DNA from: a virus
Reading direction: 5' to 3' (one strand)
Length of the DNA stretch: 64,000 bases
Virus record (IMG/VR): IMGVR_UViG_3300010372_000004
Span: 1 to 64,000 of that record
The notes under the pieces are model-generated. The model saw only the letters and a list, made by a program, of their open reading frames with translations. It did not search any database and had not been told where the DNA came from. Shown piece by piece: positions 4,160-9,900 of this stretch (the stretch's first letter is position 1; the number at the start of each line of letters is the position of its first letter). A program made the translations under genes and the position numbers.

Positions 4160-4184
4160 GAAAAACCTGAATATATCAGGTTTT
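4160..4184 (-). terminator. intrinsic terminator after tRNA-Asn
   Basis: Minus-strand 9-bp stem AAAACCTGA/TCAGGTTTT (4176-4184 with 4162-4170) with a 5-nt loop and a T-run. It lies 55 nt past the tRNA 3' end and defines the end of the ncRNA-tRNA transcription unit. Confidence 0.85.
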
Positions 4185-4238
4185 CGTTTAGTTTACTTCA
4201 ATTTTATTTTGGATTCAAAAATAGAATAACCAAGAAAA

Positions 4239-4314
4239 TGGCTGCTTCAACACGGTTCGAACGTGTGACCCACAGATTAACAGTCTGCTGCTCTACCAAC
4301 TGAGCTATGAAGCA
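4239..4314 (-). tRNA. tRNA-Asn (anticodon GUU), CCA encoded
   Basis: 76 nt read on the minus strand. The 7-bp acceptor stem TGCTTCA/TGAAGCA is fully paired; T8 and A9, D arm GCTC/GAGC, anticodon arm GCAGA/TCTGT with loop CTGTTAA (anticodon GTT), 5-nt variable region, and T arm ACACG/CGTGT with loop TTCGAAC all fit the consensus. The discriminator is G and the 3' CCA is in the DNA (4239-4241), the usual phage and proteobacterial form. It is the last element of a transcript that begins near 5230. It would help decode AAC/AAU codons, which an AT-rich phage uses heavily. Confidence 0.96.
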
Positions 4315-4322
4315 ATAAACAT

Positions 4323-5230
4323 AAGCCTTGTGATTTACCAGCCTTGGCTTCAGCTGTAGATTTTTACATCAAACTGACTTGCAAATCAGTTTGAACATTG
4401 GTCTTACCCAATTTAGGAAAGTCGCCCTAAATCACAAGCTTATATTTACTTAGTGGTACGTTCTCCAATCGGCTGACTAGACCAATTTGGGTTTTTACAC
4501 TGGATAATAGCTAGTTACCAATGTTCTGGGAATAAACCGTTGAAAATTCCCTCATGCAGTGAGATGTAGAATAATCACCTAACTGAAGCACTCGCCACAG
4601 GTTTGTAATCTTCTTGCACCCCGATCTGGTTCGTCAAAGAACATACCACTAAGTAAACATCTTTAAGAAATCTTCAAGGTTACGGTTATGGCTTTCCGCT
4701 TACCTAGAGTCAAAAGCCAATTATGCACTCTGCCTTTCGGTCTGAAAATTTCTTAAAGATATTTGGACATGAACACATAGGGTTCTACTAAATTCGTTAC
4801 CGAAATTAAAGCTGTGTCCACAGCTTGGTTAAAACCTAAATTTTAACAGTGATTAAGTCACTAGCTGCCTTTTATTGTCCATTAGGCTATCGACGTTCAC
4901 TCACTTTGTAATAAAACAATCAAATGGGTGATTGCTTCAAAGCTCTGGAACATTTAAGAAAATCACTTGTAAGCTTTTCACTTACTTGCTGATTTGGTTT
5001 GTATGCAGTCCCCAAACAGGCGATGCTTGTTACCAAGCTGGTAGCCACAGACTATTGTAGAAAGTCTTAACCATATAGGGATTCGGGCTTTTCTACTCAT
5101 TTGTGATTTTCTTGGAAACGATTTTGTTACTCTATCAAGAACACACTTTTCAGCTTTACTTATCAAGGAACACCAAAATCGTTTCCAAGAAAATCGAACT
5201 GCTGATTTCTCAGCAGTTCGTCTTCATGTG
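4323..5230 (-). ncRNA. large structured RNA upstream of tRNA-Asn (GOLLD/ROOL-like candidate)
   Basis: About 900 nt without a credible gene. Read on the minus strand from a probable start near 5230, consecutive helical domains follow each other with junctions of 0-3 nt: a 10-bp hairpin with a GAAA tetraloop (5210-5219/5196-5205), a 22-bp helix (5174-5195/5105-5126), a central domain including a hairpin with a GTAA loop (5025-5038), a 17-bp helix with one G-U pair (4744-4760/4659-4675), a 19-bp helix with one G-U pair (4639-4657/4445-4463), and a 14-bp helix with one bulge (4428-4441/4323-4337) ending 8 nt before the tRNA. The GNRA loops form only on the minus strand, as do G-U rather than A-C pairs, which fixes the direction. 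Large ornate phage RNAs of the GOLLD and ROOL classes have this size and tRNA adjacency; membership is inferred, not shown. Confidence 0.75.
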
Positions 5231-5236
5231 ACCAAG

Positions 5237-5263
5237 ATTATTATAGAAAACAAAATCCGTCAA
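5237..5263 (-). promoter_or_regulatory. sigma70-like promoter for the structured RNA and tRNA-Asn
   Basis: Minus-strand -35 TTGACG (5258-5263) is followed by AATAAT at 15-nt spacing (5237-5242), embedded in TATAATAATCT. Transcription would start near 5230, a few nt before the GAAA-loop hairpin. It overlaps the stop codon of the 38-codon gene upstream. Confidence 0.7.
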
Positions 5264-6961: not shown

Positions 6962-9900
6962 TTAGCAGTTGATTGAAACAACCCCTGCATCTATATCTAC
7001 ACTGATTTTACCATTTGCGTCTGTCACTAATTGTCCATTATTTACAGAGAAACGAGTACCAACAGCTGGCTGTTGATTATCAGCAAGAACGAAATGAGGT
7101 TTGTTTAAATCTGCAAAGATGTAACCACGTTTCATCACACGACCTTGTCCTTTTCGTACACCAACTGAGTTTAAACTCATGACTGGAATATCATCAAGGG
7201 CAACGCCATAGACTTTATCATTACCGTTTGCTTTTCTAACGTAACCACCTCTTTTGGTTACAATGCTTCCTTTTGGAATGTACTCTTGAACAGCACCAGA
7301 TTCTGTTTTCCAGTTATATACAGACTCAGATACATCTGTAATTGTTGGATAGTAATCTCGACCATAAACGTACAAATCCGCAACCGCATTGGTTAATTGT
7401 GAATTAATTATATTGAGAATACTTTGATTACTCATACCAGTGAAATCTTGGTTGAAATTAATTGTGTTTACTACACCATCCACAGTCAATTTCAATTGCT
7501 TATTCTCAGTTCGACAATCACCAAGGCGTACACTTAAACTGGTGTATTTAACTCCACCATCGTAAAGATAAGCACCATCGGTTAAATCTTTACAACCAAA
7601 AGCAATCGCTGGTAATCCAAGGGAACCATCCTGAGTAATATACCCATCAATATATTCTCGGCTATCTACATAAATTGCTGCATCAGCATTCGATTGATTA
7701 TTTTTAATCAAAGTTGCAAAGGCACTTGATGTTGTATCAAAACGAATTGTTTTTCCTTCACCAACTGTATTTGATTTAAAGCGTAAACAAAGACCAGTTG
7801 ACACCAAGTTCTCAAACAGGAATGGTTCATTACCATGTCCGTAAACATGCCATTCAGCGTGATTGAACGAATCTCGGTTTAAAGTTGTATTGCCCGTCAA
7901 CCAAATATCCACGTATGCCAACATGTAGGCAACACCACCGAAGCTACAACCAGATAACTTTAATTTATCTTGCAACAATGAACCATCCGACTGCATCAAT
8001 ATTCCATACTTGTTGGTGATACTTGAGAAATTGAAGTCCTCAAAGAACCAGCCTGAAGGAACATTAAATTGAATGTTATTATGGCAAGCAAATGGGTGTC
8101 CTACGTCAGAATGTGCACGACCACCGTAAAGGTATGTTTCTTCACCTTCCCATGTTCCGATACCGAGTGGGTTAATAGCACCTTTATCACCTTTGTAAAC
8201 AAAACCTACATTGTGATAATTGTGAGTTGCGTTAGCACCTCTTGGGTTATCTTGATGCAAAGTGTAACGCAAGTTTTGAGCAATAAATGTCAAATCTTTT
8301 ACGTGAGCATCTTTAGCATAGTGATAAATCGTTTGATACTGTAGTCGTGGGTAGGTATTACCATCTGCGGAAGGACCAATGGCTGCATCATCATAAGGTA
8401 ACTCAGCCCAGAAGATGGTGTTGTTTTCACCTTGACCTTCAATGTCTACATGATCTTTCATTTCAATCATTGCTGGATAACCAAGATACCCAATAAAGTC
8501 CACCGCTTTATCAACCTTGTAAATACCTTTCTTCGCTTTAATAACGTATCGGTTATTTTCTGTGGCATCTGTAATACTATTTAAGGCTAACTGAACCGCA
8601 TTTGGTCCCTTAAACTTAAATTTAGTATCTGTTTCATTTAAATCAGGAGATACCCAAACTTCTGTTCTATTTACAGAAGAACCTTTAATCATTAAGTTAT
8701 GAGCAAGCTTAACTTTATTTGGTACATAACTTGAAGGAAAGTTCTCTCGTTTAGCAACAACCACAGTGTTCAGGATTGTTTTCAAAATAGTGAGTTTTAT
8801 ATATTTAGCATTGCTTGGAGTGCTAAATGTAAAATCACTAGCTGGTAGAGACTGACCAGAGATATAGGTCATGTTCTCGTCAAAAAAGGCGAACTGCTGA
8901 TAAAAGTTACTTGATGTTTTATAAACTGTAGAAGGTGAAACTTCATAAGGTCCAGCAGCGTAATAATCTGGATTAAACCCTAAATCACCGTTTTCGTACA
9001 TCACGTAAGCATTATCTACAATCTTACTTGTGTCTACAATATTCACAGTTTCAGCACCAATGAAGTCGTCTAAAACTTCTGGTAAATCTAATACTTGTGA
9101 GCTATATAGGCGCAAGTTATTTGCAATCCTAATATCATTAGATAGATATTCAAATGGATAAACAGCTTTTTTAGCAACAACAAGAGTTGCAAGGTCTGCT
9201 TTTTTGACTGTGAATTTTACATATTTTGCATTTGCAGGGGTCTTGAAAGATTTCCCGATACCTGTATTTGCTTGACCAGAAATATATGCCATATTTTCGT
9301 CAAAAAAGGCGAACTGCTGATCGTAAGCAGGGGTTACAGAATATTCGGTAGAAGGTGAAACTTCATAAGGTCCAGCAGCGTAATAACCAACGACTCCACC
9401 TATTTCACCATTTAGGTAATTTACATAAGCGTCATTCATTACCAATTTTTGGTCGATAATATTTATAGGTTCTAAGGCTAAAGCATTGGCAATGAATGAG
9501 TAAAGTTCTGGAAGTTGTTTCGCTTCAACAAAAAAATCTTTAAAACGTAAACCATACGGTTCGTATTCTTTAGGGAATAAGGAACTTTCAGCGACGACAA
9601 GACTATTTTCCAAACCTTTATCTACAGTTAAACGAATATACTTAGCGTTGCTCGGTGTAACTGTTTTAAAGCTTGGAGATACGTTAGCAACACCTGAAAT
9701 ATATTTTCCATATTTATCTAAATAGACAAATTGTTGACCATAGTTGTTTGAGAACTGATATTCAGTATTTGGTTTAATCTCATATGGACCAGCTACTGAG
9801 AAATTTTCAGATTCATATAGCTGTCCATCACCATAATTAATATAGTAACCCTGTAATAATTTAGATTTATCTAAAATATTTACAACATAAGCACCCAAAG

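Follow-up and report, generated by a model that had tools for sequence, protein, structure and literature searches.

A conserved RNA core beside tRNA-Asn in an Acinetobacter-type phage belongs to a new phage RNA family and may be tRNA-like

The window analysed here, a stretch of 64,000 nucleotides, is part of a 74.7-kb virus record of an Acinetobacter-type phage. Its phage group is that of the A. baumannii phages Mystique, TCUP2199, EAb13, fJoAci01 and fJoAci04 (DNA polymerase 69–71% identical); in Mystique the polymerase (L004, 5023–6898) is split in the annotation into several open frames, whereas relatives have a single one. On the minus strand of the window, an endolysin-like gene is followed by a very small open reading frame, ~930 nt without a credible gene, tRNA-Asn, a terminator-like hairpin and a 163-aa gene. 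The interval between the protein-coding genes contains the following features, compared where possible with the nearest relative, locus L009.

5229–5263, minus strand: promoter-like boxes TTGACG ... TATAATAATCT, read from the sequence; both boxes unchanged in L009, the spacer between them diverged
5195–5220, minus strand: 5' hairpin of 11 bp with a GAAA loop, from the fold; one compensatory change in L009
5105–5195, minus strand: hairpin with a 22-bp stem (5195–5174 / 5126–5105), from the fold; other letters rebuild the stem in L009
4964–5103, minus strand: conserved core RNA of a new family (model R2, 97.8 bits, E 2.6e-22; model R1, 117.6 bits)
4846–4915, minus strand: segment common to the window and L009 (79% over 71 nt)
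4450–4845, minus strand: lineage-specific structured stretch; other sequence in L009
4317–4447, minus strand: 131-nt domain immediately upstream of the tRNA, closed by 18 bp and enclosing four hairpins; each of the five helices shows compensatory changes relative to L009
4239–4314, minus strand: tRNA-Asn (GUU), CCA encoded, from the tRNA call
4161–4185, minus strand: intrinsic-terminator-like hairpin and T-run, from the terminator scan

The original prediction placed a ~900-nt structured RNA here, in one transcription unit with the tRNA, and several of its elements stand. The tRNA-Asn(GTT) lies at 4314–4239 minus, the terminator claimed at 4160–4184 is a hairpin with a T-run at 4185–4161, and the claim that the RNA region holds no credible gene is borne out: its longest open frame is 62 aa (5166–4978), and no frame common to the relatives was found in the core. 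The predicted sigma70-like promoter (5237–5263) is supported by the retention of its boxes in L009, but its spacing is ambiguous (12, 15 or 17 nt, by choice of −10) and a standard 16–18-nt consensus scan did not report it. The predicted minus strand is correct, though fold energy does not by itself reveal it: the minus-strand fold of 926 nt reaches −300 kcal/mol (z −6.7; none of 20 shuffles folds as well), and the plus strand also folds far better than its shuffles (z −13.1). Because both strands beat shuffles, fold energy alone cannot pick between them, and we assign the minus strand from covariation, homologues and the tRNA.

Only ~140–200 nt of the ~900-nt tract are widely conserved. R2, a held-out covariance model trained only on non-Acinetobacter metagenomic sequences, matches the window at 5103–4964 minus with 97.8 bits (E 2.6e-22), and its next match within the 64 kb scores 9.9 bits; in the nine records tested it finds a single core copy per genome. 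As the conserved unit, the large ornate RNA originally proposed gives way to this ~140-nt core, which also stands alone in phages without a large RNA. Four helices of the core covary strongly. It also has a 23-nt loop that is nearly invariant, a GNRA hairpin and, on the 3' side, a hairpin that fits the T-loop consensus. Its parts, with the helix P0 that lies just outside it, are listed 5' to 3'; A1 is a sequence-only alignment of 15 compact members, Acinetobacter members included.

5103–5113, minus strand: P0, 5' strand (AAGAAAAUCAC), from an unbiased closing-helix scan
5057–5096, minus strand: P1 hairpin (5096–5090 / 5063–5057, plus G5088-C5064), from 35 distinct P1 sequences
5065–5087, minus strand: near-invariant P1 loop CCCGAAUCCCUAUAUGGUUAAGA, 23 nt, from a comparison of 28 listed loci
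5048–5050, minus strand: P2, 5' strand; this helix closes the inner branch and shows covariation at each of its pairs across the family
5025–5038, minus strand: P2a hairpin with a GUAA (GNRA) tetraloop, from alignment and loop comparison
4992–5017, minus strand: P3 hairpin, variable in the family, from comparison; only 67% of cells paired in A1
4989–4991, minus strand: P2, 3' strand; covaries at every pair in the family
4969–4985, minus strand: P4 hairpin, 7-nt loop UGAAAAG closed by G-C, T-loop consensus, from alignment and loop comparison
4956–4966, minus strand: P0, 3' strand (GUGAUUUUCUU), from the same closing-helix scan

Covariation supports this fold. In A1 the score is 0.800, against 0.252 for shuffles and 0.11–0.15 for slid partners, and 24 of the 28 pairs change on both sides. 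A sequence-only alignment without any Acinetobacter member has 95.6% of cells paired and a score of 0.944 (0.250 shuffled, 0.07–0.17 slid). Across the 35 distinct P1 sequences, 84.8% of positions pair in register compared with 32–44% in shifted registers. P2 is just 3 bp in the window and 4–5 bp elsewhere (family consensus GUCYGG with CCRGRC). The P2a loop, which is the GTAA tetraloop named in the original prediction, is GUAA or GCAA across the family. Most positions of the P1 loop are identical in all 28 listed loci, with real variation confined to loop positions 5, 12, 13 and 19, and the family consensus is CCCGWAUCCCUNNAUGGUYAAGA. The window carries P1 with this loop (5096–5057), P2, the GNRA P2a and the T-loop P4, alongside its held-out model score. 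We are highly confident that the core represents a genuine RNA family that is new and missing from Rfam, and its identity as such is strongly supported.

The P4 loop of 7 nt, closed by G-C, is mostly UGNAARG in the family. A T-loop has U at position 1, a purine at 4 and A at 5; members with 7-nt P4 loops outside Ackermannviridae follow this consensus (U1, A4, A5, closing G-C), and the P4 of Ackermannviridae does not. The unbiased scan finds P0 as 9–12 bp just outside the core in the window, L009, Mystique, the Ackermannviridae Ag3, phiD3 and phiMAM1, GR28A and KKP 3715. Its letters differ by lineage: AAGAAAAUCAC/GUGAUUUUCUU in the window, UAAGUGUUG/CAACACUUA in A. baumannii phage Mystique, UGUACUCAACC/GGUUGAGUACA in phiMAM1, UGUGACCAACC/GGUUGGUCACA in Ag3, UUUCCUGAUUA/UAAUCAGGAAA in KKP 3715 and AGGAAAUUUUG/CAGAAUUUCUU in GR28A. 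In the large forms this covarying helix closes the core domain, and in several lineages it does so directly on P4. The order P0-P1-P2-P4-P0' is the order of a tRNA cloverleaf (acceptor, D, anticodon, T, acceptor) with the third arm enlarged. This reading is not universal, because the scan did not see P0 in most compact metagenomic members and because P4 of Ackermannviridae departs from the T-loop consensus. Position 56 of the loop, the counterpart of the tRNA base that pairs with G19 of the D-loop, varies.

A strict loop held within variable stems, together with a GNRA hairpin and a T-loop-like hairpin, suggests a compact tertiary fold, as expected were the core a new ribozyme with the 23-nt loop as its active site. 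We consider this rather improbable: no conserved cleavable junction was identified, and the core matches no ribozyme in Rfam.

BLAST finds an island of ~80 nt (5102–5023) common to the window and five A. baumannii siphophages. In the homologous stretch of fJoAci01, 27 nt recur exactly in Ackermannviridae (for example Shigella phage Ag3 and Salmonella phages SKML-39 and GG32), where they sit in unannotated DNA beside tRNA genes. In short-query searches some 160 named phage records carry the motif, and almost all of them are Ackermannviridae; further named carriers are Gamaleyavirus (Schitoviridae), Vibrio phage K474 and Acinetobacter phages. Scanning IMG/VR for the motif in forms relaxed step by step yields about 30 true contigs of up to 358 kb, jumbo-phage contigs among them. 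Other pattern matches from IMG/VR (L050–L054, L059) and GTDB (L037–L040) lack P1 and are regarded as chance matches. GTDB species genomes hold one true match, an 8-kb contig of a Flavobacteriaceae bin (L041, TTAAGA form of the motif only), a pattern scan of plasmids found no motif, and the Ag3 core as query matched none of 5,426 E. coli genomes. We conclude that the core is phage-specific and occurs in essentially no bacterial genome or plasmid. Among phages related more distantly by their DNA polymerase (Achromobacter JWF and 2-1, Caulobacter Seuss, Xylophilus Lumi and Pseudoalteromonas KB12-38), no core was found near that gene. That the loop is near-identical in siphophages, Ackermannviridae, N4-like phages and jumbo-phage contigs, with the stems free to vary, points to strict contact with something common to their bacterial hosts.

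Much of the remaining ~900 nt is bound to its lineage. L009 has the same order of promoter-like boxes, core and tRNA-Asn, with a degenerate tRNA (8718–8787, 36 bits) between the last two. Among the helices originally predicted, those of 10/11 bp (5220–5195) and 22 bp (5195–5105) exist, but the long middle ones (~4762–4450) have no counterpart in L009, so comparison lends them no support. Since 4845–4450 is not alignable to L009, the middle helices rest on one sequence. The 131-nt domain at 4317–4447 has no match in 50,697 phage records. The outer 9 bp of the 22-bp hairpin compete with P0 (5195–5105 versus 5113–4956): 9 nt, AAGAAAAUC, pair either with an upstream GAUUUUCUU in the hairpin or with a downstream GAUUUUCUU in P0, a choice that L009 also has and that is a possible switch.

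In the A. baumannii phages the order is tRNA-Asn, then a non-coding tract of ~1.4 kb, near whose 3' end the core is found. A circular permutation between these phages and the window was considered and rejected: only the order of tRNA and core differs, and the rest is not homologous by BLAST. Downstream of tRNA-Asn in the non-coding tract of one A. baumannii phage (L007, 2116–2250) is a 135-nt tRNA-like element (GGGUUAU ... AUAACCC AACCA).

The tracts around the core, 0.9–2.2 kb in Acinetobacter, Ackermannviridae and Gamaleyavirus phages, invite the view that the whole 0.9–1.9-kb transcript is one scaffold of the GOLLD/ROOL kind, perhaps a multimeric cage, with the core as assembly domain and the other half variable. 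Ackermannviridae fit this pattern, having a mosaic variable 5' part followed by a constant ~200-nt core, much as GOLLD is reported to combine a constant 3' domain with a variable 5' part (PMC12286853). However, neither the GOLLD nor the ROOL model matches, a lone core in a 150–220-nt gap seems too small for a cage, and the large extensions of different lineages showed no homology to one another; we judge such a scaffold unlikely. The core is shared and its flanks are lineage-bound, so we take common selection to act on the core, with the large RNAs as lineage-specific extensions. That the tract is decayed filler of a tRNA array with no function of its own might be suggested by degenerate tRNA-like pieces nearby (L009, 8718–8787; L044), but it is scarcely credible: unrelated phages show compensatory evolution and a loop almost free of variation, and these require selection acting on the RNA. 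This contradicts filler for the core, although the lineage-specific middle (4845–4450) may be of that nature.

The neighbourhood of the core varies. About half of the sampled lineages have a same-strand tRNA within about 1.2 kb (just 19 nt separate tRNA and motif in L065); the other half or so show no tRNA within the flank examined. In these latter lineages the core occupies a short gap whose neighbouring genes are unrelated (ThyX, an amino acid:DNA transferase, a terminase or unknowns), and in many phages it is alone in an intergenic gap of 150–220 nt. The 358-kb jumbo-phage contig L061, which has many tRNAs, carries a true tmRNA 1.5 kb from the core (8024–8381 minus, RF00023, 166.7 bits; tag frame ANDNALPMAA). 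Ackermannviridae and Gamaleyavirus have tmRNA-tag-like frames 0.8–1.3 kb upstream of the core. With these tRNAs, tmRNA and tag frames around it, the core has a neighbourhood of translation RNAs.

The tag-like frames themselves read ANDDVVLMAA, ANDNAYLAVA, ANDNTFLAVA, ANDSEVLMAA, ANDNAYLMVA and ANEEAYLMVA, each after an A/T-rich stretch (L018 2536–2568, L019, L021, L048, L049, L046, and L044 at about 2162). The Rfam tmRNA_permuted model scores weakly at these loci, below threshold, and they are possibly an unannotated permuted phage tmRNA. L018 (3773–3877), with equivalents in L021, L048 and L049, also has tRNA-like RNAs with an enlarged variable region, whose 3' part CAAACCCAGCAGGUGAGGUGAAAAUCCUC resembles the core 3' end (19.5 bits, R2). 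The idea that the conserved UGA of the AUGAG box is the upstream gene's stop codon was rejected, being true in two loci only.

Position beside genes could also mean that the core serves its own operon in cis, as a riboswitch, antiterminator or processing signal. It is on the strand of its neighbours in the mapped loci, in some phages a start codon follows it after 25–40 nt or a terminator follows it directly, and L024 and L043 have a boxA-like GCUCUUUAA 38 nt upstream of the motif. That boxA-like site is confined to one lineage, though, no downstream gene family is held in common, and the tRNA is downstream of the core in the window but upstream in A. baumannii phages. Because the downstream genes are unrelated, action in trans is favoured over a cis-regulatory element, which we hold to be an unlikely account.

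The explanation we tentatively put first, at somewhat less than even confidence, is a family of trans-acting tRNA-like RNAs, released from tRNA operons and engaging the tRNA-handling machinery. We prefer a tRNA-like RNA to a cage, a cis-regulator or a ribozyme because of the cloverleaf-like helix order and the T-loop-like arm. The core would be co-transcribed with tRNAs (in the window with tRNA-Asn) and released by the enzymes that mature them, in the window presumably by RNase P at 4315/4314, the expected tRNA maturation cut. Once released, it would fold as a stable tRNA-like RNA and act in trans on the tRNA-handling machinery during infection, with tRNAs, tRNA-maturing enzymes or tRNA-targeting host nucleases as possible targets. 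This mechanism, proposed from sequence comparison, is possible but doubtful.

More speculative still, and with a slim chance of being right, is a specific contact in which the invariant UGGU of the loop would pair with tRNA RCCA 3' ends and the T-loop arm would touch the elbow. The analogy is with the T-box UGGN bulge and the RNase P GGU loop, both of which pair with RCCA ends. Partition-function estimates predict UGGU to be mostly paired inside the loop (mean unpaired 0.26–0.53). In single-sequence duplex estimates against E. coli RNAs, one for each target, the invariant loop is marginal with 16S rRNA (−27.7, best shuffle −26.9) and tRNA-Glu (−22.9, best shuffle −21.3) and within shuffles for 23S and 5S rRNA. 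If UGGU did pair with tRNA ends, lytic phages could use this to capture, sense or shield tRNAs during translation takeover. Family phages can be grown on E. coli, so a partner can be sought directly. The family bears on why lytic phages carry tRNAs and would partly account for the long unannotated gaps that phage tRNA regions contain.

Among known RNAs, Rfam reports only a tRNA above threshold in the window, the RF00005 match being the real tRNA-Asn (4314–4242), and permissive filters (up to E 5) add only sub-threshold noise; the core itself has no tRNA-model match. The original prediction of a structured phage-linked RNA from GOLLD, ROOL or a new class is right as to structure, tRNA association and a new class, and wrong as to the two named families: neither the GOLLD (RF02032) nor the ROOL (RF03087) covariance model matches at any threshold. 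Dedicated searches for GOLLD (nine records) and for ROOL also found no match, but control genomes gave none either, so cmscan is the stronger negative for GOLLD. The likeness to GOLLD lies in a phage-borne, large structured RNA with tRNA genes beside or inside it and one conserved domain joined to a variable part; the core differs in being ~140 nt, able to stand alone, with an invariant loop of its own, no covariance-model match and, by our scans, essentially no presence in bacterial genomes. ROOL, too, is phage-linked, often near tRNA islands and rich in helices, but the core has no match to its model.

With tRNA and tmRNA the core shares a cloverleaf-like helix order, a T-loop-like 3' arm by the closing helix, and tRNA and tmRNA neighbours. 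It differs from them in a closing helix of 9–12 bp rather than 7, an enlarged third arm, a 23-nt loop in place of the D-loop, and the lack of a universal CCA end and of a tag frame; near the window core there is no tag frame, and the window has no match to Rfam tmRNA models (RF00023 and relatives).

Phage T4, a lytic phage, encodes within its tRNA cluster two stable RNAs, rnaC and rnaD, of 139 and 119 nt, for which we know of no assigned function. The core resembles them as a predicted small RNA of a phage tRNA cluster, but they were rejected as relatives: with filters off, the family model stays at noise (best 5.5 bits, elsewhere in the cluster). T4 rnaC (L072, 1409–1547) contains a T-arm-like GGGUUCGAAUCCC and may be a tRNA-derived RNA. 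The lytic phage ICP1 makes a ~800-nt non-coding RNA, its most abundant transcript, from an orf-less ~1-kb gap by the lysis cluster (PMC7567579). Family models find no member in the gap that fits this RNA (L074 4097–5109, ICP1 80.1–81.1 kb), so we rejected the RNA as a relative, and it may be a class of its own.

No paper on the motif was found in the open-access literature, where the string TATGGTTAAGAC occurs only in one unrelated paper. Because no catalogued family matches, the core looks like a new RNA class. The general niche of unexplained structured RNAs in phage tRNA regions was already known; what is new, as far as our searches reach, is this family with its fold and invariant loop.
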